Source of the DNA: Chitinophagaceae bacterium
GTDB taxonomy: Bacteria; Bacteroidota; Bacteroidia; Chitinophagales; Chitinophagaceae
Assembly (NCBI GenBank): GCA_023251255.1
Contig: JAHEZD010000008.1
Coordinates: forward strand, 1 to 64,000
Length of the DNA stretch: 64,000 nucleotides
Direction of reading: 5' to 3'
The notes under the pieces are model-generated. The model did not search any database and was not told the origin of the DNA. It saw nothing but the letters and a program-made list of their open reading frames with translations. Each line of letters begins with the position of its first letter. The first letter of the stretch is position 1. Positions 31,188 through 50,198 of the stretch are shown here, piece by piece. A program made the translations under genes and the position numbers.

Positions 31188-31312
31188 CTGATGTTACACA
31201 AAATGTCAAGTACTGATGTCAGGTTGAGCCTGTCGAAACCAGTTTGGAAACTGAAATCGCCTTCGAGGGCCCTCAGGCTGACATTATTCCTACAATTTTT
31301 GCGTAACATCAG
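31188..31312. repeat. MITE-like element, copy 3
   Basis: Ends CTGATGTTACACAAAA (31188-31203) and TTTTGCGTAACATCAG (31297-31312) are a 16-bp inverted repeat with one mismatch. An inner TGATGTCAGGTTGAGCC (from 31212) is shared with the copy at 3117. The right half matches the copy at 26984-27138. Confidence 0.65.
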
Positions 31313-31786: not shown

Positions 31787-31849
31787 GGCTACTGCTCAGA
31801 ATCTACGGATAGCCGCTTCGATTTGATGTATAATCTAACGAGAACTGGG
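31787..31849. repeat. 63-bp direct repeat R1
   Basis: Identical to 38035-38097 at 62 of 63 positions, same orientation. Next to it ATCCGTAGAT (31765-31774) and ATCTACGGAT (31801-31810, inside the repeat) form a 10-bp inverted pair. The two copies bracket a 6.2-kb segment. Confidence 0.85.
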
Positions 31850-32325: not shown

Positions 32326-32709
32326 TTAAAACGGCAGATCGTCGAGCGGCTCAGTCAAGCTTTCAGGAGATTGCTGTTTGGCTTTGGGTTCGCTGCTTTG
32401 CCCCTTTCCATGCACCTTGATTGAGTTCACATGGCAGTTGAGGGTTGCTTTCGGCTCTCCCTGCATGTCCTTGTATGCGGTGACATACAGTCTGCCGTTG
32501 ATTTCAACGATATTTCCTTTCGTGAGACGTTCTGCAACTCTCGTCGAAATCCAATAGCCACACTGGATGTACAAGGCAACCTGCTTTCCTTCGGCTTCCC
32601 CTTTGGGCTTGAAATAATCGTTGATGGCAACGGTGAAGCTCACTACCTGCCTGCTGTCCTTGAGGGTCCGCACCTGTGCATCCCCTACCAGCCTTCCTGT
32701 CAGTTCCAT
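32326..32709 (-). CDS. ssb: Single-stranded DNA-binding protein
   Basis: 127 residues from the ATG at 32709 (the frame is open to 32766, but MELTGRLVGDAQVRTL is the usual opening). OB-fold at about 1-100: SRQVVSFTVAINDYF, GNIVEINGRLYVTAYKDMQGEPKATL. A polar linker follows, then the acidic tip EPLDDLPF, which recruits partner proteins. It is an isolated extra SSB beside mobile-type DNA; such copies are typical of plasmids and integrated elements. No conjugation or integrase gene accompanies it here. Confidence 0.9.
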   Translation of the reverse strand: MELTGRLVGDAQVRTLKDSRQVVSFTVAINDYFKPKGEAEGKQVALYIQCGYWISTRVAERLTKGNIVEINGRLYVTAYKDMQGEPKATLNCHVNSIKVHGKGQSSEPKAKQQSPESLTEPLDDLPF

Positions 32710-32816
32710 GTCTGTTGATTTTTGTTGAATAAATGATGGATGGATTCGGCATGATGCCTCATTCATATACCCGTAGCAAGCCCATATTGGAACTACAGAG
32801 ATGGGAGAACGTTTCT

Positions 32817-33797: not shown

Positions 33798-33904
33798 AAA
33801 TATGTTTATTTAAGGGTATAGACTTTAGCAAAATTAAGCGGTAAAGGAGCCTTCAGCCAAAAGAAGCAAAGCTGGTGTGGCACACCTGCCCACACCGAAG
33901 CCAA

Positions 33905-34496
33905 GATGCTCGCCGAAAGGAACGGGAAGGAGGTCCGACTGGACGTTCCGTGCGAGTGCGAGCGGATGGGGCGTCCAAGGGAATGACTGAAAGGAATGGT
34001 GGACGCACAGTGTAGGCGCTGCCGTATAGGATAGCGAAGCTATAAGTGTGGGTTTGTGAAGGCAGCGCCAAACGCAGACGGGAGCCGCACGGCGAGCAAA
34101 AGATCAGAAGGAAGCGCGTGAATGTGCATACGTGTGAAGGATTGCATAGCCGGGAGCGAAGCATGGTGGAATGAGTATGGGTGGGTATGTGCAATAGGTG
34201 AAAAGTGATTGATGGAAATTGTGCTGTGCATTACTTTTCCCTATGCACTTGGGCGATGGCACGAGAGAGACCTGGCTGGAGCGTCAAGGCGTTAAGTGCA
34301 AGACAAACAGGTGTGCACAGACACCGGGAGCTTCCCGAGCGAAGGAGGGATGAGGAAAAAGCATGACAAACTGCGGAGCGACCCGCAGGGCGGTGCAGTC
34401 AAAAACATGCCTCAAGTTCATAGAATGAACATGTTTTTGTCTGCAACGGTTTGGCGTGGTTTTTATCGAAGACTGACGGAGAGAGACCTTTTTACC
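33905..34496. ncRNA. Structured element SE1, about 592 bp, first copy (candidate non-coding RNA or recombination arm)
   Basis: Over 90% identical by eye to 39074-39668, and more G/C-rich than the surrounding genes. Visible pairings: GGCGCTGCC (34015-34023) with GGCAGCGCC (34061-34069) enclosing ATAGC-GAA-GCTAT (34031-34043); GGACG with CGTCC near 33940-33975; and AAAAACAT (34401-34408) with ATGTTTTT (34431-34438) enclosing GTTCAT/ATGAAC. Differences between copies fall in loops or keep the pairs. Frames across it are Ser/Cys-rich or not conserved as protein. It begins directly after the ankyrin gene at 34503 (minus strand). Strand of any RNA is unknown. Confidence 0.5.
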
Positions 34497-34502
34497 TAAC
34501 TC

Positions 34503-35300
34503 CTACTTTTTACTTTTATTTATAAACTCAATTATCTCTTGCTTAAGCTTTTTTTGTTCTGGTGAATATGCCTCCTGAAATTCATTCATCAAATCCAGCA
34601 AAGTCATCTTTTGTTCATACTTGGTTCCCTTTTGCCTTATTACACAATATTCGGGCATGGGCATGTTCTTCTCTACCAACAAATATTTGACTATATCCAA
34701 TTTCCACGAACCAGCTATGGAAATAAGTGATTCTTCGTTGGTACCATAAATTGACAGGTCTGCACCATTATCTACCAAAAGCCTCACATAATCAAGGCTC
34801 CCGTAAGAACATGCTGTACTCAAAGGTGTTTTAAATAAAGTAGTGGCACGACCACGCTTATCAAAAAAGGCACCCACTTTTTTAGTGTTTACATCGGCAC
34901 CAAATTGAATCATTAATTCAAGTATTGATTTGCCAACTGGCGAATTTGAATTGCACATACAGGCATTTAGAAACGGCGTATTTTCCTTGATGCTGGAACG
35001 GAGGTTAGGATCAGCACCCAATGCAAGCATTTGTTTTACCGAAGCAACTTTCCCTAAAAAAATGGCAAACTCCAGCAGGCTTTCCCCATGTATCTTTTCC
35101 CGGAAGTTGGCTGCGGATTTGTTGGCAGAAACATAGTTTTTTATGGCAATAGTATCTTCTACCTGTATGGCCTTGGCCAAATCATAAAAAGGTGTTTGTT
35201 CAAACAACCTCACATCATATCCATTAGGCTTATGCGAAGATTGTCCACTACAGGTGCTAAAGAACCCTACGAAAACAATGAAGGTCAAAAATGGTTTCAC
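34503..35300 (-). CDS. Ankyrin-repeat lipoprotein, candidate immunity protein (A1)
   Basis: 265 residues. Signal MKPFLTFIVFVGFFSTCSG with a Cys lipobox; then at least four ankyrin repeats (about 60-220: LLEFAIFLGKVASVKQMLALGADPNLRS, LELMIQFGADVNTKK, TPLSTACSYGSLDYVRLLVDNGADLSIYG, LISIAGSWKLDIVKYLLVEKNM). The C-terminal block EYCVIRQKGTKYEQKMTLLDL is shared with the next gene. It is a clear paralogue of that gene (same opening after the Cys, PNGYDVRLFE), so the pair arose by duplication. Placed behind an RHS tip with a lipase fold, a periplasmic ankyrin protein that blocks the lipase is the likely role. It is separated from its twin by 118 bp. Confidence 0.78.
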   Translation of the reverse strand: MKPFLTFIVFVGFFSTCSGQSSHKPNGYDVRLFEQTPFYDLAKAIQVEDTIAIKNYVSANKSAANFREKIHGESLLEFAIFLGKVASVKQMLALGADPNLRSSIKENTPFLNACMCNSNSPVGKSILELMIQFGADVNTKKVGAFFDKRGRATTLFKTPLSTACSYGSLDYVRLLVDNGADLSIYGTNEESLISIAGSWKLDIVKYLLVEKNMPMPEYCVIRQKGTKYEQKMTLLDLMNEFQEAYSPEQKKLKQEIIEFINKSKK

Positions 35301-35306
35301 TGTCAG

Positions 35307-35432
35307 TTATTTAATTTTATTGTCCCTTATTAAATCTTTCATACTATACGTCCTTGTTTCAATAGGTTTCCAAACACTTGACATGTCAACTGCTGCGATT
35401 TTACGAATAACAATGCTATCACCTCTTGTCCT
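35307..35432 (-). pseudogene. Short open remnant overlapping the end of ankyrin gene A2
   Basis: In a second frame, overlapping the A2 stop codon, about 40 codons read like protein (VWKPIETRTYSMKDLIRDNKIK at the end) without a start codon upstream. It could be the tail of a displaced gene. A similar remnant follows the third ankyrin gene. Confidence 0.25.
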
Positions 35433-36231
35433 TTAAAAATTCAATTATTTCTTCCCTGAGCCGCTTCTGTTCTGGGCTGTACATCTCCACATTTTCATTG
35501 AGCAAATCCAAGAGCGTCATTTTCCTCTCACTGGGATTTCCCTCCTGCCTTATAACACAGTATTCAGGTACAGGTATCTTTTTTTCTATCAAAAAGTACT
35601 TTACCATATCAAGATTTTTACCAAGAATAGTATAGGTTATGAGAGAACCTTCATTCCCCTTATAAATTGTTATGTCAGCACCATTATCCACCAGTAATTT
35701 TACACCAAATAGGTTGCCATAAAAACACACACTAACCAACGGAGTTGAGTAAGTAACTATCTTCCTACCATATTTGTTTACAACCGTATCAATTTTCATA
35801 TTGTTAACCTCCGCACCATACCTAATCAATAACGACAGGATGGAATCCCCATTTTGGAGGGGCTCATAATGCAGGCAAGCATCATCAAAGGCACTTTTCC
35901 CTGTTTTTGAAGAACGGAGATTTGGATTAGCTCCCAATTCAAGCAATTGTTTTGTTGACAGTAGCTTATCAGTTATTACAGCAAAAGAAAGAAAACCCTT
36001 ATGATAAACTGGTTCCTGATAATTAATAGCATTTTTATCAGATAAAATATACCTTTTTATACTATTTGTGTCCTCGTTTTTAATTGCTTTTGCTAAATCA
36101 TAATAAGGTGTTTTTTCAAACAACCTCACATCATATCCATTAGGTGGTTGCTTATGGGATGTTTGCCCATTACAAGCACTGAAAAAAAATGTACTCAAAA
36201 CCATATACTTTACCAATCTGCTTTTTTTCAT
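35419..36231 (-). CDS. Ankyrin-repeat lipoprotein, candidate immunity protein (A2)
   Basis: 270 residues from the ATG at 36231. The frame is open to 36291, but that would overlap the RHS tip gene and bury the signal peptide MKKSRLVKYMVLSTFFFSACNG. Ankyrin repeats at about 55-225 (FLSFAVITDKLLSTKQLLELGANPNLRSS, LLIRYGAEVNNMK, TPLVSVCFYGNLFGVKLLVDNGADITIYKG), then the shared end EYCVIRQEGNPSERKMTLLDLLNEN. It starts 10 bp after the orphan RHS-lipase stop, so it is the most likely cognate immunity gene of that tip. Surface or periplasmic location is inferred from the lipobox. Confidence 0.8.
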   Translation of the reverse strand: MKKSRLVKYMVLSTFFFSACNGQTSHKQPPNGYDVRLFEKTPYYDLAKAIKNEDTNSIKRYILSDKNAINYQEPVYHKGFLSFAVITDKLLSTKQLLELGANPNLRSSKTGKSAFDDACLHYEPLQNGDSILSLLIRYGAEVNNMKIDTVVNKYGRKIVTYSTPLVSVCFYGNLFGVKLLVDNGADITIYKGNEGSLITYTILGKNLDMVKYFLIEKKIPVPEYCVIRQEGNPSERKMTLLDLLNENVEMYSPEQKRLREEIIEFLKDKR

Positions 36232-36241
36232 AAAATGTTTT

Positions 36242-38020
36242 TTAATACCCGAACTTAATTGCACGGATAACTTTATCAATTCCATGTCCATTTAGCGGCC
36301 CCCCTTTAAACACATTCGAAGTTGACCAGCTATTTAGTTTAATATCTGTTCCTAAATGATGCAAAATGCCTGTAAGTTTATTTCCCGTCCTTTGGGTTAC
36401 ATCCAACAATTCTCCATTAATTACATAGTTAGTAATTCCCCCACGTGATATATCCAGCCCATATGCTCTTACTGTGTTATCTGATAGCCAGGCAGGGTTA
36501 TAGGTTATTGCTACCCCACTATTTTTTACAGCAGCAGCTATGGCAAGCCCCCCACCCAAGGAGTGCCCAAGGAAAGTAACACCACTCAGACCAAATCTAT
36601 TAACCATTGTAGTACTATTTTTTATTGCTAAATCATATTGGGCAGACATTCCCAATAGTTGCCCTCCATTGTTTATCCAATCTTGAATGTCCTCAGTTCC
36701 TGCAAAAGTATAAGCATAATGTGTTTTGCCATCAACATCGGTACGTTCATAAAGCATTGACTTAAACCCACTTTCACGGTCATCAAATTGAAACTTTTCA
36801 CCAAAAGATGCTTGCTGTCCTGAAATTTTCCACCCACCCTCCATATGGAGACGCCCATTTTGATAGACATTCTGTGCCATATAAGCACCTTCTAAGCCAG
36901 TTGGTCTCCCATCAATACTTAACGCCCCATAATCTGCTCCGCCAAGACCCAACTCTTCCATCAAATCCCCTAAAACCCCGTCCCAATATGCAGAAACATT
37001 GGAACCTATATGCCCATTGGAATTGCTCCAATCGTACCTGTTCTCATACGAATGGTCACTCAAATCATTCCCCAAATCATCCATGTTGGTGTCATGGTTA
37101 TCGGTCTGCCCAACTGTGCTTTTCAGCTTCATCCCATCCGGATCAATGAACCTGATAGGATTATCGTTCGTGTAAGTATATGGGCTCCATCTCCTGTTAC
37201 TCTCCGCCATCGGGTCCACCACATGCCACCTGCCTATCTGGTTGTCGTACATCCTTGCACCGTAGTCCGTCCATTCAAGGCCACCACCGCTCAGTTCATG
37301 GCTCTGTTCCTCCTTGCCATTGTACTTCAGCCCTTGGGGCGTGCCATTGGCAGCCTTGGAACTTATACCTGCCATCACCAATCCAAAGGGGTAGTACTGC
37401 GTTTCCTCCACCAGCTTGCCATGTATGTGTTCCACATGGAGGTCATCAAAATAGACAGGGTACTGTGAATTGGTATTGCTGAGATAAATATACAGGTATC
37501 CGTTCTTGCTGATGTCTATACCGCTTCCGCCATTTGCCTCCAGCAGTACAGCAGGGTTGCAGCTTCCATCATGGTTCTGCATGAGGCTGGTGAAACCGGA
37601 GCCGCTGCTCACCATCTTGAACTGTTCCTCGTCCAGCAGTACCCAGTTCAGGTAGGCACCGTCCGTACCGTAATTGTCCTGCATGGACATGAAATCAAGC
37701 ACTCCGGGGTAGAGGTTGCTCCCGTCTATATTGCCCAGCACCCCTCCCTTTGCACCTGTCCTGATGATGCCACCACTGAAGATGCCGCTCAGCACGTCCT
37801 CTATCGGGCTGATGGAACTGGGGTCATTGTCGGGGTCGGTATTGTCGTACCAGCCCATTACCCTTGCATCCACATGGTCCCCGGCCATTACCTTCAGCAG
37901 CTTGCCAGCACCCAGCACTGTCTGCACCTGCCCGCTGATGGGGGTCTTGGCTGCCGCTACCTTCTGCACCATGCTGCCACTGGCACCCATGCAGGATGGT
38001 GCGGCTATACGGTTCACCAC
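36242..38020 (-). CDS. Orphan RHS C-terminal cassette with class-3-lipase-like toxin tip
   Basis: 592 codons from a GTG pair at 38020. An in-frame TAG lies within the 63-bp repeat that begins at 38035, so the 5' part of the RHS gene is missing and no good start or signal exists. Residues about 20-230 match the equivalent part of the full RHS gene downstream (KLLKVMAGDHVDA, NWVLLDEEQFKMV, DDLHVEHIHGKLVEETQYYPFGLVMAG). The RHS core is DYGARMYDNQIGRWHVVDPMAES...NPIRFIDPDGM. After DDLGND the sequence is unique: a lipase domain with GHSLGGG (nucleophile Ser, VTFLGHSLGGGLAI). Probably not expressed as a full toxin; it is a stored or displaced tip. Confidence 0.8.
   Translation of the reverse strand: MVNRIAAPSCMGASGSMVQKVAAAKTPISGQVQTVLGAGKLLKVMAGDHVDARVMGWYDNTDPDNDPSSISPIEDVLSGIFSGGIIRTGAKGGVLGNIDGSNLYPGVLDFMSMQDNYGTDGAYLNWVLLDEEQFKMVSSGSGFTSLMQNHDGSCNPAVLLEANGGSGIDISKNGYLYIYLSNTNSQYPVYFDDLHVEHIHGKLVEETQYYPFGLVMAGISSKAANGTPQGLKYNGKEEQSHELSGGGLEWTDYGARMYDNQIGRWHVVDPMAESNRRWSPYTYTNDNPIRFIDPDGMKLKSTVGQTDNHDTNMDDLGNDLSDHSYENRYDWSNSNGHIGSNVSAYWDGVLGDLMEELGLGGADYGALSIDGRPTGLEGAYMAQNVYQNGRLHMEGGWKISGQQASFGEKFQFDDRESGFKSMLYERTDVDGKTHYAYTFAGTEDIQDWINNGGQLLGMSAQYDLAIKNSTTMVNRFGLSGVTFLGHSLGGGLAIAAAVKNSGVAITYNPAWLSDNTVRAYGLDISRGGITNYVINGELLDVTQRTGNKLTGILHHLGTDIKLNSWSTSNVFKGGPLNGHGIDKVIRAIKFGY
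37065..37276. repeat. RHS-core duplication, copy A
   Basis: 212 bp, about 95% identical by eye to 41610-41821, with no length change. It encodes the end of the RHS core up to DDLGND, after which the two tips diverge. Lower identity continues upstream in the gene. Confidence 0.85.
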
Positions 38021-38034
38021 GTTCTCGAACAGCA

Positions 38035-38097
38035 GGCTACTGCTCAGAATCTACGGATAGCCACTTCGATTTGATGTATAATCTAACGAGAACTGGG
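38035..38097. repeat. 63-bp direct repeat R2
   Basis: One mismatch to 31787-31849. It carries the stop codon (TAG on the minus strand) that ends the upstream reading of the orphan RHS cassette; RHS homology stops at its edge. It is therefore a recombination junction. Confidence 0.85.
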
Positions 38098-38140
38098 TAA
38101 CCATTTAAAAGCCCCTTATGGGCAAAAGGAGGATTTTTCA

Positions 38141-38401
38141 ATGCATTTCGATGGAGCATTATTAAAAGAGCAGGGTGTACCCTTCGCTATTGTGGTTGTA
38201 AAACCACACGTACTTAACAGTTCATGCGAAATTCAATGTGCGAGAACTGATTTCAGCAGACACTTTCCAAGTGTGCCAATTATCCTGATGGCACAGGATC
38301 AAAGAGGGGTTCCGACATACCAAGGGAGAACAGACATCGTGCAATTCCTTGCCAGCATCAGCCCTTCCCGTATTCCATGGAAAAGGTATTCACTCAATTA
38401 A
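38141..38401 (+). CDS. Small conserved-looking protein of unknown function
   Basis: 86 residues. An unusually strong Shine-Dalgarno (AGGAGG at 38127-38132) sits eight bases before the ATG, rare in this phylum and good support for translation. The protein is compact, with FAIVVVKPHVLNS, FPSVPIILMAQD, GVPTYQGRTDIVQFLASI and SRIPWKRYSLN. No domain recognised. It starts 43 bp after the R2 repeat and precedes the DUF1508 gene by 24 bp on the same strand, so the two probably form an operon. Confidence 0.7.
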   Translation: MHFDGALLKEQGVPFAIVVVKPHVLNSSCEIQCARTDFSRHFPSVPIILMAQDQRGVPTYQGRTDIVQFLASISPSRIPWKRYSLN

Positions 38402-38425
38402 ATCACAAATTCAAAAACAAGTTTT

Positions 38426-38764
38426 ATGTCTTCTTATCCACGTTACGAAGTATTCAAAGACAGCAGAAATGAATACCGATTCAGACTCGTTGCTGCAAAT
38501 TACAAGACCATCCTTGCAAGTGAAGGGTATACAAGTAAACAAAACTGTTACAACGGCATAGAATCATGCCAAAGGAATTCCCCTAATGATAACAGGTACC
38601 AACGGTTGACTTCGAGCAACTACAAGTATTATTTCAATTTACTTGCTGAAAATGGCCACATCATCGGAACCAGTGAAATGTATGAAAGCACTACCGGAAG
38701 GGAAAGCGGCATTGATGCTGTTAAAAGGGATGGCCCCACAAAAACCATTTCAGACAACTCTTGA
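38426..38764 (+). CDS. DUF1508 / YegP family protein
   Basis: 112 residues with two copies of the DUF1508 unit: YEVFKDSRNEYRFRLVAANYKTILASEGYTSKQNCYNGIESC and YYFNLLAENGHIIGTSEMYESTTGRESGIDAVKRDGP. The family is a small duplicated beta-alpha fold of unknown function common in bacteria, often beside stress genes. Second in a small plus-strand operon that interrupts the minus-strand RHS region. Confidence 0.88.
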   Translation: MSSYPRYEVFKDSRNEYRFRLVAANYKTILASEGYTSKQNCYNGIESCQRNSPNDNRYQRLTSSNYKYYFNLLAENGHIIGTSEMYESTTGRESGIDAVKRDGPTKTISDNS

Positions 38765-38823
38765 TAATCAAGCCTACCGCTCCGGGCAAAAGTGGAGTTA
38801 TTACTAACCCCAAAAATTATTTT

Positions 38824-38988
38824 ATGAATAATAATTTAAGCTTCTATATGCCACTTGACCAAATAAAAATTGGTTTGCCAAACGGTGCATATTTCGAAGC
38901 AAGAGGCAACAATGCAAAAATAATGACAGCAGCTATTGCTATCTGCATAGTTATTGCGGTTGCATATATTGTTTCCAAAATAAAATAG
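38824..38988 (+). CDS. Small single-pass membrane protein
   Basis: 54 residues from the ATG at 38824 (a TTG at 38761 would extend it over the DUF1508 stop). The N-terminal part FYMPLDQIKIGLPNGAYFEARGNN is followed by one helix (IMTAAIAICIVIAVAYIV) and a basic end SKIK. No family recognised. Third in the small plus-strand operon. Confidence 0.5.
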   Translation: MNNNLSFYMPLDQIKIGLPNGAYFEARGNNAKIMTAAIAICIVIAVAYIVSKIK

Positions 38989-39073
38989 TACCCAATTCTT
39001 TAATGGTTAGTTAAGGCTGTTATCATTGATAGTAGCCTTTTCTATTTGTATTATAGGAAGATTGCTATAGCAT

Positions 39074-39668
39074 GATGCTCGCCGAAAGGAACGGGAAGGA
39101 GATACGACTGGACGTTCCGTGCGAGTGCGAGCGGCTGGGGCGTCCAAGGGAATGACCAGCGGGAATGATGGGCGCACAGTGCAGGCGCTGCCATATAGGA
39201 TAGCGGTAGCTATAAGGGTAGGCTTGTGAAGGCAGCGCCAAACGCAGACGGGAGCCGCACGGCGAGCAAAAGATCAGAAGGAAGCATGTGGATGTGCATA
39301 CGTGTGAAGGATTGCATAGCCGGGAGCGAAGCATGGTGGAAGGAGTATGGGTGGGTTTGTGCAATAGGTGAAAAGTGATTGATGGGAATTGTGCGGTGGC
39401 ATTACTTTTCCCTATGCACCAGTGCGGTGGCACGAGAGAGACCTGGCTGGAGCGTTAAGGCGTTAAGTGCAAGACAAACAGGCATGCACAGGCACCGGGA
39501 GCTTCCCGAGCGAAGGAGGGATGAGGAAAAAGCATGACAAACTGCGGAGCTACCCGAAGGGCGGTGCAGTGAAAAACATTCCTTCAAGCAAATCAAGAGA
39601 GGATGTTTTTGTCTGCAACGGTTTGGCGTGGTTTTTATCGAAGACTGACGGAGGGAGACCTTTTTACC
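39074..39668. ncRNA. Structured element SE2, about 595 bp, second copy (candidate non-coding RNA or recombination arm)
   Basis: Second copy of the element at 33905. The GGCGCTGCC/GGCAGCGCC stem (39184-39192 with 39231-39239) is kept. The inner ATAGC/GCTAT stem is kept, with loop GGTA instead of GAA. The terminator-like stem AAAAACAT/ATGTTTTT (39572-39579 with 39603-39610) is kept, but its inner part is changed to CCTT/GAGG, which still pairs. It lies downstream (minus-strand sense) of ankyrin gene B, exactly as the first copy lies downstream of A1. Confidence 0.5.
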
Positions 39669-39989: not shown

Positions 39990-40838
39990 CTATTTATTTG
40001 GATTAATCTTTGAAGGAATCGTAAGGGAATCTTTTACTTTATATACCTCATTATTGGGAAAATCTATTGCTTTCAAATAGTCCAATATATCTTGCCTTGC
40101 CTTCAATTTGGCGGCACTTGCATTATCGGGGAATTTCTTAATGTCTAAAAAATCAAAAATATCAATGGCCTTACTATCCATTCTATAAAATATAGGGTTC
40201 GGCACTTTCATCTTTTTCTCCACTATCATGTAATGTGCAGTGAAAATATTTTCATTATGAAAACTAAGGAGCAGGTAACGCCAAACACTATATTCTTCTT
40301 TGTACTTAACATAGGCATCCGCACCATTTTCAAGTAGCAGCTTTGCACAAGCAGAGTCCCTAACTGCACCTTTTAGTGGCACATAAACATATCCATTGGC
40401 TGAATCCTTGTCAGTTCCCCTAGACAATGCATTCACATCTGCACCCTTTGCAATCAGTGATTGCAGCATTGCATGCGATTTTGGAGTAAGCTCGTAATAA
40501 TCCGTCAGTTCATGGATTGGAGTGTAGCCTCTCTTGTTCTTTATATTGAAATCCGCACCTGCTTCCAGCAGGGCATCTACCGATGCCACTTTCTGGTTAT
40601 CAATGGCAAGGTGCAGGAGGGTTTGTCCGAACTTCTTTTCCTGGAGGTTTATATCCGCCTTGCCCTCGGCCACCAACCTCTTTATTTCTGCAACATTCTC
40701 CTCCTTTACGGCAAGTGCCAGTTTACGGGAGGGCATGCTATCAAACAAATCGAACCTGTAACCCGGCGGTACATAGGTTTGTGCATGGCAGCCCATTAAA
40801 AGCAGTGAAAGGCTAAAAATCATTATAGTGTTTTTCAT
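39990..40838 (-). CDS. Ankyrin-repeat lipoprotein, candidate immunity protein (B)
   Basis: 282 residues from the ATG at 40838 (the frame opens at a TTG two codons earlier). Lipobox LLMGC. Ankyrin repeats at about 40-215: RKLALAVKEENVAEIKRLVAEGKADINLQ, QTLLHLAIDNQKVASVDALLEAGADFNIKNKRGYTPIHELTDYY, LQSLIAKGADVNALSR, AKLLLENGADAYVK. It shares the YRFDLFDSMPSRKLA-type opening idea but is otherwise distant from A1/A2, matching the different lipase tip it follows. The gap to the RHS stop is 2 bp, indicating translational coupling as for toxin-immunity pairs. Confidence 0.82.
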   Translation of the reverse strand: MKNTIMIFSLSLLLMGCHAQTYVPPGYRFDLFDSMPSRKLALAVKEENVAEIKRLVAEGKADINLQEKKFGQTLLHLAIDNQKVASVDALLEAGADFNIKNKRGYTPIHELTDYYELTPKSHAMLQSLIAKGADVNALSRGTDKDSANGYVYVPLKGAVRDSACAKLLLENGADAYVKYKEEYSVWRYLLLSFHNENIFTAHYMIVEKKMKVPNPIFYRMDSKAIDIFDFLDIKKFPDNASAAKLKARQDILDYLKAIDFPNNEVYKVKDSLTIPSKINPNK

Positions 40839-40840
40839 AA

Positions 40841-43510
40841 TCAATTAATTAATTTTTGCAATGAGTGTATTACGGTATTGATGGAATGGTTTTGCAGCAC
40901 TGGAAAAGGTAGCCAGTCCCTCCAGCTTCCTGTGGGTAAGTCCCTTATCCTGCCCTCCGCCCTTAGACCCAATTGAAAACTCTGTGCATAGTTAAGCGGT
41001 TCATTCCGCACAATATAAGCAAGAATCCTGTTTTCGGATTTGGTAAGGGTGCCATACTTGTATTCTGTTTGCCAGCTCAGGCCTGCGGCATTAAACGTGA
41101 CTGCTGTCCTGTCTGTCATATGGGAGGCCAATGATGCAAGCCCCCCACCAAGAGAATGCCCTGTAAGGGTCAATTGTCCATCGCCGATTTCTCCGCTTAT
41201 AACTTTAGCATTATCAACTGCCTTCTGGTATTGGGGGTCATTTAGGCCGAGGAACTGTTTTGCATCCGATGATACATCTTTAAGTGAGGCATCGGTTCCT
41301 GCATAGGCATAGCAGTATTCCACTACATTGCCATCCATTACCCTTTCAAAGAGCATGGATTTGAACCCTGTTTCATCACTATAGGTTACTCCCATTTCTC
41401 GATTGGATACCTGCCACCCATCAATTAATAAGTCAGGGTCTTCATTTTCCTCCCCATAAACATATTTGCACATGCCTGCAAACTGCAATGCCCTCTCAGC
41501 TGCTCCTCCACTACTCCATGCTGATTGCAACATGTCCATAAACAACTTCGCATCATTCTCCTCCATTGAGCCCCATTCATGCCCCATCCTTTTCCCCGGC
41601 CTGCTCATATCATTCCCCAAATCATCCATGTTCGTGTCATGGTTATCGGTCTGCCCAACCGTGCTTTTCAGTTTCATCCCATCCGGATCAATGAACCTGA
41701 TGGGGTTATCGTTCGTGTAAGTGTAGAGGCTCCATCTCCTGTTACTCTCCGCCATCGGGTCCACCACATGCCACCTGCCTATCTGGTTGTCGTACATCCT
41801 GGCACCGTAGTCCGTCCATTCCGGACCACTGCCATTACTAAATTCCCCTTTCTGCTCTTCCTTCCCATTGTACTTCAACTTTTGGGAAGCTGAGTTCGCG
41901 GCCTTGCTGCTAATTCCAGCCATCACCAATCCAAATGGGTAGTACTGCGTTTCCTCCACCAGCTTGCCATGTACATGCTCTATGTGCAGGTCATCGAAGT
42001 AAGCAGTAAAGCTAGTATTGCTGTTGCTCAAATATACATAGAGATAACCGTTCTTTTCTATATCTATGCCACTGCCCCCATTGGCCTGCAGCAGTTGCTT
42101 GCTATCGTAGGCACCAATGGTTGGCACCTGTTCAAACCCACTGCTGCCACTTACCAGTTTGAACTGCTCCTCATCCAGCAGTATCCAGTTCAAATAGGCA
42201 TGCACGCTATCTTGGCTGTTATTCTGACCACTGAGGAAGTCCACAACTCCTGGATTAAGATAGCTGCCCATGTCCCTAGCATCGTGCATGCCCTTGGCAC
42301 CTGTATGGGCAACAGCGCTACCAAAAACTGCAGTCACAATGTCATCCAATACAGGCAATATAAAGCCACCACCTAGCGCTAGCGAAGTCTCCCCGGGATC
42401 GTACCAACCATAAACACTTGCATCCACATGGTCACCTGCCATCACCTTCAATAGTTTGCCGGGGCCAACAATTGTTCCCCCTGCGTCCCCTTTCAATTTG
42501 GATACCATTTCATTACCACCGTCTCCGTCAAAACCGCTTGGCTTGTTTGTGGCCGTGGAGCTGACCCTGCTGAAAAGCGCATCCTCCAATGTAGCGTTGG
42601 AAGTTTCCATCGTGGCCTGGTACACATCCGTTTTCTGGCCATCGGTCAGGGTCGCCCTGATATTGCCCAAGTGGTCCCTGATGAAGTAATCATAGACCAG
42701 CACCGTGTCCTGCATCCTGACCCTCCCCTCCTCATGGGCAATGGATTCCAGTGTATCGTTCCTGTAGGTGAACCCTGCCATATAGGTGGTGGTGGTCTGG
42801 AGCCCCCCGGCCCTGATGTCATTTATGATCTTGGACACCCTTGTGCCGCCAGCATCGTGTACATAGTAGATTTCGCCGATGTCCCCGCTATTGTCCGCCA
42901 TGTACACATAATCCACAAGACCGAGGTGGTTGTAATGTATGTCCTGGATGTTCTTGTTGTAATCATAAGCAAGCCCCCCATTGGCATTGTAGCTGTAGTC
43001 ACTGCTGCTGCCGTTGGTACCGTCATTGAAATCGCCCAGCTTGTTGTCTGCAGTTATGGCATCCTCCACTTTGTCCAATTGGTTGCTGTTGCCCAGGTAG
43101 GTATAGCTCAGGTCATCGATGGTGGCACTGGCAACAACCGTCAGCCCTTTCTGCTGCATGGCCAGTATATTGCCATTGGCATCATAACTTAAACTGCCCA
43201 CTGAATAGTCCACACCTGCTGACTTGTCAAAGGCTCCGCTGGTGTACTGGTTGAAGTCTGCTCCCTTCAACCTGTTCACCGCATCGTAGGTATAATCGTA
43301 CTTCCTTTTCTCCCCGTCGCCCATGGCCTTCCAGGTCATGCCCGCTATATTGCCGTCGTACATGGCCTGGCTGTAGCCCTGGCCGGATATGATGTTGCTG
43401 GTATTGTCATAGGCTATTTCATAACCGAAGCTGTTGCTGCTGTTCGCATCCTTCACGAAGTCCCTGTTCATGCCCAGCAGCCAGCCACGGATATTGTACT
43501 CATAGTGCAT
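40841..43510 (-). CDS. RHS protein B, C-terminal part: RHS core plus class-3-lipase-like tip
   Basis: 889 codons from an internal ATG; really the continuation of the frame at 43468-45198 after a 1-base deletion near 43549. It opens with the RHS landmark YEYNIRGWLLGMNRDF, then YD-type repeats, DDLHIEHVHGKLVEETQYYPFGLVMAG, and the core DYGARMYDNQIGRWHVVDPMAES...IRFIDPDGM. After DDLGND comes a unique tip of about 250 residues with TGHSLGGGLASLAS, a lipase_3-type Ser nucleophile. RHS shells encapsulate and deliver a C-terminal toxin released at the core; here the toxin would be a phospholipase or lipase. The ankyrin lipoprotein starts 2 bp later. Confidence 0.85.
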   Translation of the reverse strand: MHYEYNIRGWLLGMNRDFVKDANSSNSFGYEIAYDNTSNIISGQGYSQAMYDGNIAGMTWKAMGDGEKRKYDYTYDAVNRLKGADFNQYTSGAFDKSAGVDYSVGSLSYDANGNILAMQQKGLTVVASATIDDLSYTYLGNSNQLDKVEDAITADNKLGDFNDGTNGSSSDYSYNANGGLAYDYNKNIQDIHYNHLGLVDYVYMADNSGDIGEIYYVHDAGGTRVSKIINDIRAGGLQTTTTYMAGFTYRNDTLESIAHEEGRVRMQDTVLVYDYFIRDHLGNIRATLTDGQKTDVYQATMETSNATLEDALFSRVSSTATNKPSGFDGDGGNEMVSKLKGDAGGTIVGPGKLLKVMAGDHVDASVYGWYDPGETSLALGGGFILPVLDDIVTAVFGSAVAHTGAKGMHDARDMGSYLNPGVVDFLSGQNNSQDSVHAYLNWILLDEEQFKLVSGSSGFEQVPTIGAYDSKQLLQANGGSGIDIEKNGYLYVYLSNSNTSFTAYFDDLHIEHVHGKLVEETQYYPFGLVMAGISSKAANSASQKLKYNGKEEQKGEFSNGSGPEWTDYGARMYDNQIGRWHVVDPMAESNRRWSLYTYTNDNPIRFIDPDGMKLKSTVGQTDNHDTNMDDLGNDMSRPGKRMGHEWGSMEENDAKLFMDMLQSAWSSGGAAERALQFAGMCKYVYGEENEDPDLLIDGWQVSNREMGVTYSDETGFKSMLFERVMDGNVVEYCYAYAGTDASLKDVSSDAKQFLGLNDPQYQKAVDNAKVISGEIGDGQLTLTGHSLGGGLASLASHMTDRTAVTFNAAGLSWQTEYKYGTLTKSENRILAYIVRNEPLNYAQSFQLGLRAEGRIRDLPTGSWRDWLPFPVLQNHSINTVIHSLQKLIN
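41610..41821. repeat. RHS-core duplication, copy B
   Basis: The counterpart of 37065-37276 within the full-length RHS gene. Sequence downstream in the gene (the toxin tip) is unrelated at DNA level between copies, as expected for tip replacement. Confidence 0.85.
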
Positions 43511-45198
43511 GGTGTCGATGGTGCTGCCCAGTGCCTTTGTGGCCAGTTGCCCAGTTCGTTGTAGGCATTGCTGAGAATGGTGCGCTCGGTGCTGGCATCC
43601 ATCTTCTTTGCCACGCTGGTTACCCTGCCTGCATGGTCATATACATACTTGCTGAGCACGGTATGCGCCTGTGCATTGGTGCCCGATTTCTGGTGGGCCA
43701 GGTGGCTGCGCAGTATCCTGCCACTGTAGCTGTACTGGTTGGTAACCACATCCGTACCGCCCGATATATTGGTTTCCTTTTCCTGCACCACACGCCCGTA
43801 ACCGTCGTATAACGGGAGGCTGTACAGGTAGGTACTGCTGGAAAGCACAAACCTCTTGCTGCCTGTTATTGCTCCCCGTATCCTGCTGCTGGTCACTATT
43901 TCCTGTGCATATTCAGGGGAACTGTCGTAGCTGCTGTAGAAATTGCCACTGGTGATGTTGGTAGTGACCAAACTACTGGTCACGGGGTTGCCCTCGGCTG
44001 ACAGCCAGCCATAATTATCGTAATAGGTTTCCGACATAACGGTGTAGGTGCCGCTGATGGTGGGGTAATCGCTGCTGGCGGCAGCATGTGCCAGGATACT
44101 GTCCTTATTGTCCCAACTGAGGATCAGTCCCGATTTGATGGGCCTGTCCTGTGCATCGTACTTTATGAAAATCCATTCACTGCTGGTACGCAGGTTGCCG
44201 TCCTGCGTCATAACGGTCCTGCCCAGTAGGTCATAAGCTATATAGGTTTTGCTGGTGCCGGGCAGGTACTTCATGGTATTGCGGCCCCTGCTGTCATACC
44301 AGTAGCTGTAGCAGAGGCCCGTGCCTATGCTGGCGTTGCTGGCCAGGTTCCAACTGACCGCTATCAGTGCTTCCACAGCCTTGGGCGGCAGCACATAGCG
44401 CAGGTGCCCCATTTCATCATAAGTATAGTAGGTGCTCAGCCAGCCGTAATGCCCCGCTGCGGGGCTGGCCAGCGACTGTACCCTGCTAAGTACTACCTGC
44501 CCCAGTTCGTTTTTGTAGGTCACCTTCTTGGTGCCTTTCTCGTCCGTCACTTCCTCCACCAGCAGGCTGCCTGCTGCATAGTAGCCACTGGTGGCAGGCA
44601 GGTCGTCCTCACTGTTAATGTCAATGGTCCAGAGGCGCACGCTGTCATAGCTGGTACTGGCCCTTTGTGCGATGGACTTGCCCCTGTTGGCACCCGTCCA
44701 ACTGTCGCCCTCGGGGGTCAGTTTCAGTACCCGCTGGAGGGGCGATGCATCCAGTTGTGTCTTGCTGAAGAAACTGTTTTCACCGGGAAAGAGGCCATGG
44801 TAGAAGGCGGAATCATACACCAGTGCCGTCTGCTTGAACAGGCCGTCATCCTTATTGCCCGTTTGCTGGGTGTAGGGCAGGTACTGGGTGGTGCTCCTGC
44901 CGAAGATATCATAGTCTATGGCTGCCACCAGGTCCTTCTTGGAAGGGGATGCCTGCTTCACCACTTTCTGTATGGGCCTGCCCAGGCCATCAAGGTAATT
45001 GGTTTCCACGCCCACGTTCTCGGGCACTGCCGAGATGGTCACGTCCGCCGTGTCCTGCGTGGGCTTCAATGGCACCAGCACCCGCTGGAAGGTCCGTGAC
45101 ACATGGGGATCGTAATTATGGTAGCCCGGCTGGGCAGTGGCAGCAAGGGCCAGCAGCGCTGCCAGGGGAAGGAACAGGTACCGTAAATGCTTGGTCAT
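43468..45198 (-). CDS. RHS protein B, N-terminal part (DUF6443-type), frameshifted
   Basis: 576 codons. Signal peptide (to LAATAQ), then the DUF6443 opening VGVETNYLDGLGRPIQKVVKQ, and YD/RHS repeats such as YDEMGHLRYVLPPKAVEAL and YDSRGRNTMKYLPGTSKTYIAYDLLGR. The natural frame ends around NAYNELG: the last 20 codons are out of frame. Inserting one C after GAACTGGG (about 43549) restores ELGQLATKALG...MHYEYNIRGW and joins the frame at 43510, giving one protein of about 1450 residues. The shift may be a real mutation, a phase-variation state or a sequencing error. Fourth gene of the operon, behind a 582-bp degenerate-repeat gap. Confidence 0.85.
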   Translation of the reverse strand: MTKHLRYLFLPLAALLALAATAQPGYHNYDPHVSRTFQRVLVPLKPTQDTADVTISAVPENVGVETNYLDGLGRPIQKVVKQASPSKKDLVAAIDYDIFGRSTTQYLPYTQQTGNKDDGLFKQTALVYDSAFYHGLFPGENSFFSKTQLDASPLQRVLKLTPEGDSWTGANRGKSIAQRASTSYDSVRLWTIDINSEDDLPATSGYYAAGSLLVEEVTDEKGTKKVTYKNELGQVVLSRVQSLASPAAGHYGWLSTYYTYDEMGHLRYVLPPKAVEALIAVSWNLASNASIGTGLCYSYWYDSRGRNTMKYLPGTSKTYIAYDLLGRTVMTQDGNLRTSSEWIFIKYDAQDRPIKSGLILSWDNKDSILAHAAASSDYPTISGTYTVMSETYYDNYGWLSAEGNPVTSSLVTTNITSGNFYSSYDSSPEYAQEIVTSSRIRGAITGSKRFVLSSSTYLYSLPLYDGYGRVVQEKETNISGGTDVVTNQYSYSGRILRSHLAHQKSGTNAQAHTVLSKYVYDHAGRVTSVAKKMDASTERTILSNAYNELGNWPQRHWAAPSTPCTMSTISVAGCWA

Positions 45199-45232: not shown

Positions 45233-45740
45233 GCTATTATCGGTAATCGCAAGTCGGGAGTCCGAAAGACGGAAAGTAATTGGAGGCTTCTTATGAGCCG
45301 TAATCCAACTTTCTGTCTCCTTTCTTTCCGTCTTTTCCGTCTACTTTTCTTTCAGTCTTCCCGTCTCCTAATATTATGTTCCGTTCACTAAGGGCTTCGA
45401 CAGGCTCAGCCTGACACATGTTCGGACTTCCTGTCTTTCCCGACTTTTCCGTCTTATTTTCTTTCCGTCTCCTAATATGCTCGTCCACCTAAAGGGCTTC
45501 GACAGGCTCAGCCTGACAGCATCTTTCGAACTTTCCATCTTTCCAGACTTTTCCGTCTTATTTTCTTTCCGTCTTCAGTCTTTTCCTCCTTTTGGTCTCC
45601 CCGTCTTTTGGGCTTTCCCATCTCTTTTATACTCGTTCATCTAAAGGGCTTCGACAGTAGTTCGACAAGCTCCTTGACATTGCGTTCGGGAGGGCTTTCA
45701 ATTGCTTTTCGGTCTTTCCCGTCTTCCGGACTTTCTGTCT
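45233..45740. repeat. Degenerate pyrimidine-rich word tract with three TTCGACAGG words
   Basis: About 500 bp made of drifting copies of tttccgtctt, ttccgtc and tcctaatat-type words (purine-rich GACGGAAAG on the minus strand). It is interrupted by three copies of the cttcgacaggctcagcctgaca word (45392-45418, 45493-45518 and a damaged one near 45646-45672). It separates two genes of the RHS operon. Nothing protein-like was found in it. Confidence 0.65.
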
Positions 45741-45803
45741 ACTCCCTCCTCACTACTGCCTTCTCACTGCTGCCTATTGCCTACTCACTATTGCCTATTG
45801 CTG
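45741..45803. repeat. Degenerate ctactcactattgcc tract forming the 3' end of the peroxidase-like gene
   Basis: Drifting copies of CTACTCACTATTGCC. The last codons and the stop codon of the gene at 46293-45781 (AAIGNSE, stop) are read from this tract, which shares its words with 60987-61079. Confidence 0.6.
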
Positions 45804-46293
45804 CCCTTATCTGGGTGCCCATCGGCTCCGTTGCTGCGGAGAACACGCCTACCAACATGCCCGATCCATTGATGAGGAACTTCTGGTAATCGGCCAGTAC
45901 GGGCTGTGCCATCATGCCGTTTTCCGATTGGGTGGCCAACCAGTGGTAAATGCTTTGCATGCCCTGCCCTGTCACGGGCTGCTTGGCGGCCAGTTTGAAG
46001 GTATAGCCATGGTCCTGGCAGTACTGCCCAATGGCGGAATCGCTTAGCGGCTCATGCCCGAAGCTGTTACTGGGGAAGGCTATTACTACCAAGCTGTCTG
46101 CGTACAGTTGCTGCAACTGCTGCAACTGGGCCAGTTGGCCCGCCCTTGCGCTGCCCGTGGCAATGTTTACCAGCAGCACTTTCTTTCCCTGGTACTGGCC
46201 CATGGACTGTGTGGTGCCATTGCTGTCCTGGAACTGCAGGGTGTAGAAGCTGGTGACGAAAAACAGGCCGAGGCCTGATAGCAATAATTTCAT
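45781..46293 (-). CDS. Glutathione-peroxidase-like protein without the catalytic cysteine
   Basis: 170 residues. N-terminal signal or anchor (MKLLLSGLGLFFVTSFY), then a thioredoxin-like fold with glutathione-peroxidase blocks: YQGKKVLLVNIATGSARAGQLAQLQQL, VVIAFPSNSFGHEPLSDSAI (family FPCNQFGxQEP), QYCQDHGYTFKL and the end FLINGSGMLVGVFSAATEP. Where active enzymes have the peroxidatic Cys or Sec after VNVAS, this protein has ATGSARAG, so peroxidase activity is unlikely. It sits 17 bp after RHS-A and before RHS-B in one operon; a chaperone or structural role for the RHS proteins is possible. Confidence 0.72.
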   Translation of the reverse strand: MKLLLSGLGLFFVTSFYTLQFQDSNGTTQSMGQYQGKKVLLVNIATGSARAGQLAQLQQLQQLYADSLVVIAFPSNSFGHEPLSDSAIGQYCQDHGYTFKLAAKQPVTGQGMQSIYHWLATQSENGMMAQPVLADYQKFLINGSGMLVGVFSAATEPMGTQIRAAIGNSE

Positions 46294-46310: not shown

Positions 46311-49300
46311 TTAAAAAGGCACGGTGCAGGTAATGTAACAGGGTGAAGTGCTGTACACTTCCTGGTAGTAGCTGCTCTGGGAGCCATCGCTGAAGCCGTA
46401 CCTATAGGTGCATACATAACGCCACTGCAGGTAACCGTCCACCAGTACTTTCTTGTACTCCACGGATGCTATGCACCAGGTGCCCTGTTCGCAACTGCCG
46501 TCTATGATGGCGTATTCGGCACTGGTGGTGCAACTGCAATCCAAAGTGGCCTGCAGCACCAGCTTGTGGTAACCGGAGGAATCACTGTAGGGGTTGCTGT
46601 CCCTGTACACAGAATCGAAATAGGGTGCATTGTAACCATGGCACTGCCTGCCGATGCCTACCCAAACGGGGCGGGTATCAATGGCCATGGTGGTATCCGA
46701 ATACTGGAAACGCTTCACGATGTTCCGGTCCTTGTTGCGTATGAGCTTCATGCGGTTCAGGTTGTCGTACTCATTGTACAGTACGGTATTGTTGGCATCG
46801 GTGGTGCTGGTAATGCCGATCATGGGCTCATAGGTATAGGTGACCATATTGGCATCCTTGGGGTGCAGCCGCAGCTCGTCAATCAGCCCTGTGCCGCTGA
46901 TGGTAACGGTGCTGGTGCCCGTGAGCGCCACCTGGTACAGGTTCCAGCCGTTCTGCGTGGCAATGGCGCTGCCGGGGCTGCTGCTGTTTACCGTGAAGGA
47001 GGCACCCGATTTGGCCCATACGGTGAGGAGGTAATTGCTGGAAGCATTAAGGGAAGACCTTGATACATTGCCGCTGGCCAGGTCATAGCTCCACTTGCCC
47101 GTGAGGCTGTAGGCACCGTTGCGGGCACTGCTGCCAATGGTCCAGTTGCCCGACCCGTCGGATTCGAAACTGGTATGGGCAATATCGTTATATGTGGCAT
47201 TGGACACTTTGGCAATGGGGTACTGGAGGTTGTAGTCACTGATCACGCTGCTGCTCCTGCCAGTAACCAGGTTGGTCATCTGCTTGGGGTTGTTCCTGCC
47301 GTCATAATCGTCCACATGGCTTTGTGGTTTGAAGTAGCCCCTGTTCCGGTTCAGTACCGATGGGTCAAAGCTCCCGATGGTGGCCAGCATAATGGGCTTA
47401 TTGGTTTCCAGTGCAAAACTGGTGTCTGGCTTGATGGCACCCGAAGCCAGTTCCTGGAAGCGGGTCATGCTGCCCGATACGATCCTGGGGTTGGCATCCC
47501 CCACGATCCAGTTCTCCGTGGCAATCACGGGCGAAAGGATGCCGCTGTCGCGCAGCTTGCCAATGGCCCCGCCAATGGTATAGCTGTAGGGGTAGTAATA
47601 GCGTTCCTCCAGTTGCAGGCCGCGGGTCCTGTCGTAACTGGCGGTTTTCTTTGCCAGGTTGAAGCAGGTATCGTATTCAAAGCTTTCGGTACCCGTGGTT
47701 ACGGATGCGTTCAGGTGGAAGAGGCTATCGGTTCTTGACAGCAGGTAGGCCCTGCCGCCCATGGGGTAGAAGGGCTCACCAATGAATGCCTTGGTGGGCG
47801 AGGGGTCGCTCTTGCTGGTGATATAATAGGTGGATGCATGGCCCAGCTTGATGGATTTGAAATCACTGCCGGTATAGGCCAGGGTATCGAACCCGTAATG
47901 GTTGATGGTACGCTTCACGAGGTTGCCCGAACTGTCGTACAGGGAAACGCGCTTGGCCAGGCCAATGCCCCAGTTGCGGATGTCCTTGGGCACAAAGGGG
48001 AAGGCCACCGTGCTGCCATCTGCGTTCACGTCATTGAAATCGGTGAAGTCATACACGGTCTTGCCCAGGTTCTCATCAAAATCGCCGTTCTGCACCACTA
48101 CCCTGCTATAGCCCACATGGCTGCCCTGCACGTTCTGCATATCGCCCACGGGCTCACTGGTATAGGCCGTGTAATTGGTGGTGGTCACGCCACCATTGTC
48201 CACAAAATCGGTATAGGGGAAATCGTATCTGGGGAAGTCGCCCAGGAAGCCCGAACTCTTGCCATCCTCCGTTTCGTACCGGAAATATTGGCTACTTGCG
48301 GGGATACCACTGGAATCCGTGTACCGGTAAATGCCCTGCACCCGGAGCCCGCCCGAGGAGTCGGCAGATAGGGCCGTATTTACCAGCTTGTTTTCCCATA
48401 CCACGTTAATGGGCAGGCTGCCACTGAGGCTGGTACCCGGTGCCAGTGCCGTTTCCAGCTTGTACAGGCCATTGGGCATATTGAAGCTCCAGGTCCTGAT
48501 GCCCTGGTAGAAAAGGTCGTACAAGGAGATGGCAGTGGTAGCGTAGGTAACCGTGCCGGCCATGTTCTTGATGGTACAGTTGAAGGTACCTGCACCGGAT
48601 ACGGGTGCCGTGCCCGTGCGCTGCACCGTTTTGTCCACCACAAAGCTGAGCCGCTGCTTGCTGCTGAACACCTGGTTCAGGGGAAGGCTGTCTGCCGTGG
48701 CCGTGCCGGAGGGTGCCACCTGGAACTGGTGGGCCTGCTTGGTGATGGGGTAATGGTCGTTCAGTCCATAGGCGTAAGTGGTGTAACCGCCGCCGGGAAG
48801 GCTGAAACTGTACAGTGTGCCTGCCTGTGTATAGAAATTCTTTGGCCGCCTGTCGGCCCCCCAGGAAAAGCCATTGATATTGGGTATCTGGTTTTCGGGA
48901 TTGGGCGTAGGGTCGTTGGCATAGCCGTTGTAGGTACCGTTGTAGAAGCCCCAGTAATCAATCTTGTTGCTCAGGGTATCCCCATAGCTCCCCGGTCTGG
49001 GGAAATACGGTGCGTTGTAGGTAAACCGGTAGCCATCCTGCTTTTCCTTGGCGGTATAGGGTATTACGCTCCTGAGGAAGAGCTTGGTGTACAGGGTATC
49101 GAAAGAGGCCATATGTCCCGGTCTGGGCACCAGTTGCATGGTATCATAATCCAGCATATAGCCGTACCTGAACACGGTATCGCTCACCTTCACTTTGGAT
49201 ATGGCATAGAGCTCATCGGTACGCTTGTACACAAAACTGTACAGGAAGCTGAGGTGGCTGCCATTGGGGAAATCGATGGAAGTGAGTTCCTGTTCATTGT

Positions 49301-50111: not shown

Positions 50112-50198
50112 GGTATATATTATGCTTATCAATGTTATCATGTTCCTGTTTGCAAGTGGTGGTGCACTGCATTCCGAAGCAGAAACTTACGAAGAATG

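Follow-up and report, generated by a model that had tools for sequence, protein, structure and literature searches.

Large structured RNAs of several hundred nucleotides (nt) are rare in bacteria. ROOL is one of them and is comparable to GOLLD in being large. Other described systems each share some trait with the element treated here: tRNA and tmRNA genes are integration hotspots at which the 3' end of an RNA gene borders foreign cargo, the attC sites of integrons measure about 57-141 bp, and Gamma-Mobile-Trio islands, which belong to another phylum, are rich in defence systems and antibacterial toxins and contain no structured RNA that we know of. Many GOLLD RNAs exceed 800 nt, as given in the part of the source used here (PMC12286853). 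For RHS genes the rhs core is a known exchange region and is the only recombining part named in the sections of the source available (PMC10539506). The window analyzed here, 64,000 nt of a Chitinophagaceae bacterium (assembly GCA_023251255.1, contig JAHEZD010000008.1, positions 1 to 64,000, forward strand), carries two copies of a structured element beside RHS toxin-immunity cassettes. The element belongs to an apparently undescribed family of large folded, probable RNA genes. With moderate confidence, we propose that it is a large structured-RNA gene borne on genomic islands and that it also serves as a conserved arm for cargo exchange by homologous recombination.

Copy 1, which is complete, occupies positions 33840-34496 of the window on the + strand (657 nt). 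Its 5' end at 33840 (GGTAAAGGAGCC) was set by comparison with related copies, and its 3' end by loss of homology to copy 2 and to relatives. Copy 2 (39071-39668, + strand) lacks the first ~62 nt. A preliminary description, made by eye from the sequence, had placed a shared element of about 593 bp from 33905 onward; copy 1 is there but is longer, and copy 2 is 5'-truncated. The two copies align at 91.8% identity over 598 positions, in keeping with the earlier estimate of more than 90%, and they are G/C-rich as described, with 53-54% G+C vs 46% for the window. The stems named at that time, GGCGCTGCC/GGCAGCGCC, ATAGC/GCTAT and AAAAACAT/ATGTTTTT, are all present in the sequence, and the last, singled out for inner pairs that change and still pair, lies within the most strongly covarying helix of the family. 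Both copies are on the strand opposite to the cassettes, and each sits just past the last ankyrin gene of its cassette, as had been reported, with gaps of 6 nt (copy 1) and 321 nt (copy 2). BLAST and covariance-model searches of the 6.1-Mb draft genome turned up no third copy. The shared stretch opens with a short reading frame (ATGCTCGCCGAAAGG...) that looks protein-like in both window copies and, by eye, is not kept in relatives.

The family was delimited with a covariance model of the conserved 3' domain (model R1; 149 positions, 33 pairs), which scores 120.8 bits in copy 1 (34351-34496, + strand) and 123.4 bits in copy 2 (39522-39668, + strand). Model R1 matches in 50 of 394 Chitinophagaceae genomes (E<=0.001), with one to three copies per genome among those that match. 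Across the order it matches in 19 of 298 genomes, five of them outside the family, and across the phylum in 5 of 395, of which two lie outside the order and have lower scores (E 3e-9 and 3e-4). Complete elements span 553-804 nt. A DNA search of the 394 family genomes yielded a few divergent relatives, in 8 genomes and partly by chance, and a search for the 3'-end pattern found named carriers such as Limnovirga soli and Paraflavisolibacter caeni, which the NCBI taxonomy places in Chitinophagaceae. The 57 matches of alignment A3, which was fitted to the model, make up 53 distinct rows; L024 and L028/L065 are identical over 220 nt and are not independent (L and G numbers denote loci and genomes). 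Several early weak matches were discarded: L005 lies inside a protein-coding frame, which we take to be NusG, L004/L019 is a 37-nt 3' fragment, and L026 and L029, without a model R1 match, were set aside as chance.

Known families do not account for the element. Rfam 15, which includes GOLLD, ROOL, OLE, group I and II introns and HEARO, had no match in the window at the gathering score; two snoRNA matches, both outside the element, were all that E<=5 yielded, and four related loci gave none at E<=0.1. The element had no match in the plasmid collection or, by blastn, in phage records, and model R1 was found in none of 64 viral-contig stretches picked by pattern. It does not lie beside tRNA islands, with one tRNA gene each in 3 of 16 sources. 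The literature searched, judged by titles and the starts of abstracts, contains no description of it.

The consensus fold, a closing helix plus three domains, is strongly supported. Its architecture was drawn from 12 complete elements and consists of the closing helix P1, a 5' domain, a long middle arm and the 3' domain. Among its 141 pairs, 61 are changed on both sides and 92.9% of cells are paired; the covariation score is 0.306 vs 0.130 in shuffled alignments and 0.02-0.08 when the partners are slid. For the 3' domain, RNAalifold applied to the first eight sequences predicts 41 pairs, 26 of them with compensatory changes, and 15 sequences aligned by sequence alone show double-sided changes in 22 of 33 pairs and a covariation score of 0.540 (0.204 in shuffles, 0.066-0.142 with partners slid). 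The 53 distinct rows, in an alignment that leans to the model, hold 320 compensatory double-change cells vs 81 after shuffling and 62-96 after sliding. One stem-loop of the 3' domain (34392-34447 in copy 1, + strand), which includes AAAAACAT/ATGTTTTT, stays paired though variable in sequence and forms a covariation helix. The covariance-model search proposed in the preliminary description has thus recovered a family in which covariation is clear and compensatory changes exceed both shuffled and slid controls, and this comparative sequence evidence strongly supports its suggestion of a structured RNA. Inspection by eye shows the 3'-domain motif TGACAAAC / GTTTGGCG again in the 5' domain, in reverse order (alignment A6, columns 191-290; for example, L024, L084 and L080), which suggests two copies of one putative binding motif.

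The ends of the element are joined by P1, whose strands in copy 1 are 33840-33846 (GGTAAAG) and 34490-34496 (TTTTACC), both on the + strand. Across copies, the ends pair as GGTAAA/TTTACC, GGTAAT/ATTACC or GGTAAC/GTTACC. The sixth position is A-T in 21 copies, T-A in 8, C-G in 1 and T-G in 1, and positions -1 and -2 outside the ends pair in 26 and 25 of 31 copies; these figures rest on the 31 copies with reliable ends, a first table of 42 having included doubtful 5' ends. Ends of the form GGTAA...TTACC, complementary in all 31, might also be the terminal inverted repeats of a miniature inverted-repeat transposable element that by chance lies behind toxin and defence operons, a view with which the truncated copies and the several genomic positions agree. 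The variation within P1 and the pairing beyond it fit a base-paired helix better than fixed terminal repeats, because covarying pairing runs past the supposed ends into locus-specific flanks. One to three copies per genome, recurrent 5' neighbours, a biased orientation and the lack of a target duplication visible by eye at copy 1, the copy examined, likewise speak against a transposable element of this kind, which we consider very improbable.

The + strand is the folding strand. In 10 complete elements compared with 25 dinucleotide shuffles each, its mean z is -5.1 with RNA parameters and -5.4 with DNA parameters, vs -3.6 and -4.2 for the - strand. U-G or G-U is the commonest pair at seven positions of the 12-row alignment, and two positions of the 3' domain are U-G in 43 and 32 of 53 rows; these conserved pairs favour an RNA made from the + strand. 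Other details count against RNA. The most variable helix has G-U in 18 of 838 cells (2%), which is low for RNA, and A-C in 6; helix 1 outside its two U-G columns has 18 G-U vs 17 A-C; and a simple promoter pattern occurs in 10 of 31 copies, scattered, with no conserved promoter. The nearly perfect Watson-Crick covariation with few G-U pairs would suit a folded single-stranded DNA site, employed in attC-like recombination or as a start of replication or transfer, at whose 3' end tyrosine recombinases would insert cargo in a fixed orientation. Similarly, GNA triloops, which are very stable in DNA, number 34 vs 17 ± 3.5 in shuffles (GNRA and UNCG tetraloops are not enriched), and the folding strand is antisense to most cargo, as is the attC bottom strand: neighbouring RHS genes are convergent in 14 of 14 cases and the nearest open reading frames (ORFs) in 50 of 71. 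The element is, however, about 4 to 14 times as long as attC, it occurs in one to three copies per genome and not in arrays, and it combines a many-branched fold with conserved U-G positions. On balance, the sequences make RNA more probable than DNA.

The position of the element as a border emerges from a comparison of 224 locus pairs that have full flanks and element homology reaching the 3' end (50 copies; pairs share members). The 5' flank is shared in 88 pairs, the 3' flank in 20 and both flanks in 11. In 55 of these 88 pairs, the element match stops between -14 and +40 relative to the 3' end; in 23 it stops before this range and in 10 after it. For example, identity between L088 and L091 is 86% in the element and 81-90% along much of 9 kb of the 5' flank, and their match does not extend past +2; L079 and L089 match at 93% up to +67. 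The pair L119/L120, whose match ends at +27 with the contig of L120, was left out. One recombination breakpoint also lies within the element. In its 5' half, L066 clusters with L085 (61 informative sites, 0 for any other grouping), and in its 3' half the partner of L066 is L024 (27 informative sites vs 0 and 2), which is a clear breakpoint. Among six quartets examined, three show a breakpoint, all with L024 and L066, one shows a weaker signal (p 2e-4, uncorrected) and two are silent; the quartets were picked after odd-looking identities, and the p-values are uncorrected for the choice of cut or quartet. For 15 of 33 copies, the closest relative sits in the same genome, where 1.2 would be expected, and other genomes carry distant copies side by side. 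The excess of shared 5' flanks, the internal breakpoint and the same-genome relatives support the second suggestion of the preliminary description, that the element is a downstream homology arm.

A border at the 3' end could also arise if the RNA gene were an integration target of the tRNA/tmRNA type, with islands inserted at its 3' end, the gene restored and a displaced 3' fragment left at the far end. The 55 pairs in which the match ends close to the 3' end agree with this, and recombinase genes adjoin the L099 and L123 copies. Weak support comes from 3'-terminal fragments of ~37-70 nt at five places, L015, L103 (+1539), L083 (+9331), L019 and L023; three models of mid-element segments found no extra fragment, and a 5'-end model gave one marginal match. 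A fragment in direct orientation on the 3' side was nevertheless seen at only 2 of 74 copies (L103 and L083) in flanks to ~10 kb. The fragments vary in length, a 31-nt match at L022 is reverse-oriented, and most cargo has no integrase cluster nearby, and integration at the 3' end is in our view an unlikely explanation.

What lies beyond the 3' end was first described as RHS cassettes. Of the 61 copies in the 40 genomes searched, 14 have a DUF6443 RHS gene no more than ~10 kb away, and this gene is convergent every time; position alone would predict ~0.6% (49 places, ~176 Mb; calculated by hand). The earlier link to RHS is supported in this respect and is otherwise too narrow: most copies stand beside non-RHS cargo, some of it defence and toxin-antitoxin genes, and genome by genome the element and RHS show no association. 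The outcome named earlier as refuting, copies scattered apart from RHS cassettes, is thus seen in part. More generally, the nearest ORF of at least 100 amino acids (aa) on the 3' side converges on the element in 50 of 71 cases, or in 54 when ORFs overlapping the element are ignored, and a convergent gene ends at a median distance of 130 nt. This arrangement is what a cis-acting or antisense regulatory RNA, such as a double terminator for a convergent toxin or defence operon, might be expected to show. Such a role is scarcely probable, given that unrelated cargo meets the same RNA, that a conserved architecture of 550-800 nt far exceeds the needs of a terminator, and that 17 to 21 of the 71 nearest genes are not convergent.

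The cargo at non-RHS loci includes several putative defence genes. Strong matches to defence models (padloc) on the 3' side are, among those listed, IetS, IetA, Avs4, HmaC, SoFic, AbiEi, AbiEii and others, and the Pfam matches listed include HipA, SocA, MqsA, Schlafen and AIPR together with ordinary metabolic genes; the padloc and Pfam tallies hold the first 25 of 183, 52 and 102 families. The 183 defence families were matched in 82 ORFs scanned on the 3' side (of 107 listed, at least 150 aa), and weaker matches to 52 families, the best at 1e-25, in 70 ORFs on the 5' side (of 100 listed, at least 110 aa), a comparison of sets that differ in protein length, made without a genomic background. 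By design, these scans omitted RHS loci, and further rows were dropped to keep the size down. The padloc matches are to single proteins and not to whole systems, and those to DpdF may be general RecQ-like helicases. The element is linked to exchangeable cargo that includes RHS toxin-immunity, toxin-antitoxin and anti-phage defence genes, and not to RHS alone.

Three classes of context recur in a set of 74 copies with flanks, from which three loci were omitted as duplicates under another name. Class A, which includes the window, has an SSB-like gene on the 5' side (10 copies at 9 loci; the family match was tested for those of the window and L017). Its 3' side usually holds an immunity gene, a DUF6443 RHS gene, a GSHPx-like gene and a large gene of no assigned family. 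Class B has on its 5' side a ~250-aa gene, found at 27 of 74 copies and always on the same strand, with DUF5675, DUF6943 or DUF6876 genes. The product of this gene (MAKxxGIIKLxGTIGxITFYKS...; for example, L014 1495-2244, L067 6135-6938 and L080 8112-8915) had no Pfam match in the two proteins scanned and no NCBIfam or PHROG match in the one scanned. The class B 3' side is variable cargo, past which four or five islands carry a replication-like module with a DnaC-like loader and a helix-turn-helix protein (for example, L067 15056-17274).

Class C is marked on the 3' side by a tandem pair of tyrosine recombinases followed by a DnaG-like primase, in an operon that points at the element (L099 3703-8906 and 12846-14677, L123 524-5282 and L126 6577-8327); family matches were tested on L099 and, for the primase, L123. 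The genes lie 51-102 nt from three copies, two in L099 and one in L123, and 757 nt from the fourth, in L126. This type of mobile element also has, in L099, an RstR-like repressor. The two L099 recombinases that were scanned match XerC/XerD best and integron integrase lower, all under the cut-off, and divergent integrases could escape such a scan. These recombinases and primases, together with the SSB-like neighbours of 10 of 74 copies in class A, add to the case for a single-stranded DNA site; a tyrosine-recombinase cluster is near only 14 of 74 copies, and we regard that explanation as rather unlikely. A broader conjecture, also doubtful, makes the element the core of a system by which Bacteroidota capture cassettes in the manner of integrons. 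Here, a branched fold of 550-800 nt, as RNA, single-stranded DNA or both, would mark the point of capture, and the recombinases of some islands would insert toxin and defence cassettes at its 3' end in a fixed orientation, restoring the site.

Other mobility genes occur in class A. A large serine recombinase was present in 4 of 10 class A genomes searched, with examples at L018 3146-4645 and G117:C1:59268-61206. Four of ten genomes examined, G117, G396, G052 and G302, encode the C-terminal domain of comM in a shortened frame (174-221 aa vs 514-546 aa). The short comM frame of G117 is within 200 nt of the recombinase, whereas in G228, which has the recombinase too, comM is of full length. Islands of Chitinophagaceae may therefore integrate at comM.

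In the window, all cassette genes and the neighbours described here are on the - strand. The displaced cassette consists of the ankyrin-repeat gene whose stop adjoins copy 1 (34503-35300), a second ankyrin-repeat gene (35419-36291) and an RHS-core fragment with its own C-terminal part (36242-38020), which has no Pfam match. The main cassette has an ankyrin-repeat gene (39990-40844) convergent with copy 2 and an RHS gene with a C-terminal part at 40841-43510 (weak Lipase_3 match) and an N-terminal part at 43468-45198 (DUF6443). Parts of the RHS-core fragment repeat the main RHS gene at 94% and 75%, so a conserved RHS core is common to both cassettes, and this gives the picture of a main and a displaced toxin-immunity cassette. 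The 5'-side SSB-like gene lies at 32329-32766. Past the main RHS gene are a GSHPx-domain gene (45781-46293) and a 1276-aa gene without a family match (46311-50141), with relatives beside 8 and 10 of 74 copies, respectively.

Several further features of the window were noted. The main RHS gene (40841-45198) is split into its two overlapping frames, perhaps by a frameshift, an error or decay; in related loci, four RHS genes each run as one frame of 1451-1562 aa. Positions 31787-31849 and 38035-38097 form a direct repeat of 63 nt, identical at all but one position (62 of 63). Its right copy comes directly after the point at which the RHS-core fragment is cut (38020), and the two copies may flank an insertion that takes in the displaced cassette. 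Short imperfect repeats of the TTTCCGTCTTATTTTCTTTCCGTCT type are found at 45309-45657, just upstream of the RHS gene, and a 45-nt direct repeat (91%) lies outside the cassettes at 27091-27135 and 31268-31312.

In the explanation that we favour, an RNA gene of 553-804 nt, presumably transcribed from the + strand, would belong to genomic islands of Chitinophagales, and P1 would close the ends of its RNA around the three domains. The gene would be a border, with recurrent island genes on the 5' side and, from near its 3' end, exchangeable cargo that mostly points at it. New cargo would enter by recombination, probably homologous for the most part, in which the RNA gene serves as the first homology arm and another conserved stretch as the second. 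This second arm would be the RHS core in RHS loci and perhaps the replication module in some other islands. In the window, one round of exchange would have left the main RHS cassette with the 5'-truncated copy and a cassette that is probably older, with the RHS-core fragment and two ankyrin genes, beside the complete copy. The RNA may itself have a function and possibly works in trans, as other large RNAs of mobile elements do.

Several observations weigh against this explanation, beyond those already set against RNA. The 5' flank is shared by only 88 of the 224 pairs, and the element thus also occurs in differing surroundings. DUF6443 is carried by 22 of 40 genomes with the element and 24 of 44 without it, about equally often, which makes the RHS link a local one. 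The nonconvergent minority of nearest genes, the unmatched defence comparison and the mixed outcome and choice of the quartets belong here as well. Finally, tyrosine recombinases directly beside some copies permit site-specific exchange instead of homologous recombination.

The element shares traits with several known systems. Like Gamma-Mobile-Trio islands, the islands described here are mobile and mix offensive with defensive cargo, and one L099 recombinase weakly matches GmtY (3.9e-5). As at tRNA and tmRNA hotspots, the 3' end of the element borders cargo and a few displaced 3' fragments occur; unlike at those hotspots, the RNA itself seems to be part of the accessory genome, and displaced fragments are rare. 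The likeness to integron attC sites, as far as the portion of the source used describes them (PMC2727003), lies in a structured site 3' of cargo, a folding strand antisense to it and a variable sequence with a kept fold, and some copies have tyrosine recombinases beside them. Unlike in integrons, the element is far longer and branched, there are one to three copies per genome, and no array or integron platform was seen. With RHS cassette exchange, the window shares a displaced cassette with an RHS-core fragment; in contrast to exchange through the rhs core alone, which is how the sections available present it (PMC10539506), a structured element forms the border and probable arm on the other side and does so for non-RHS cargo too.

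The border context bears on how bacteria swap whole sets of weapons. The element could also be a practical marker: many defence, toxin-antitoxin and RHS systems are among the genes beyond its 3' end, and it could lead to undescribed ones in Chitinophagales. The closest RNAs in kind are GOLLD and ROOL, the best known large RNAs of mobile elements. They have a complex fold, lie on mobile elements and have no known function according to the part of the account drawn on (PMC12286853). The element resembles GOLLD, as described there, in that its 3' region is the better conserved and its 5' region the more variable. It differs from GOLLD and ROOL in having no Rfam match, in its absence from the viral contigs and phage records searched, in not lying beside tRNA islands, and in its place at a cargo border beside toxin and defence genes. 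This context, recurrent island genes on one side and exchangeable toxin and defence cargo on the other, is absent for GOLLD and ROOL and provides testable ideas about such RNAs.

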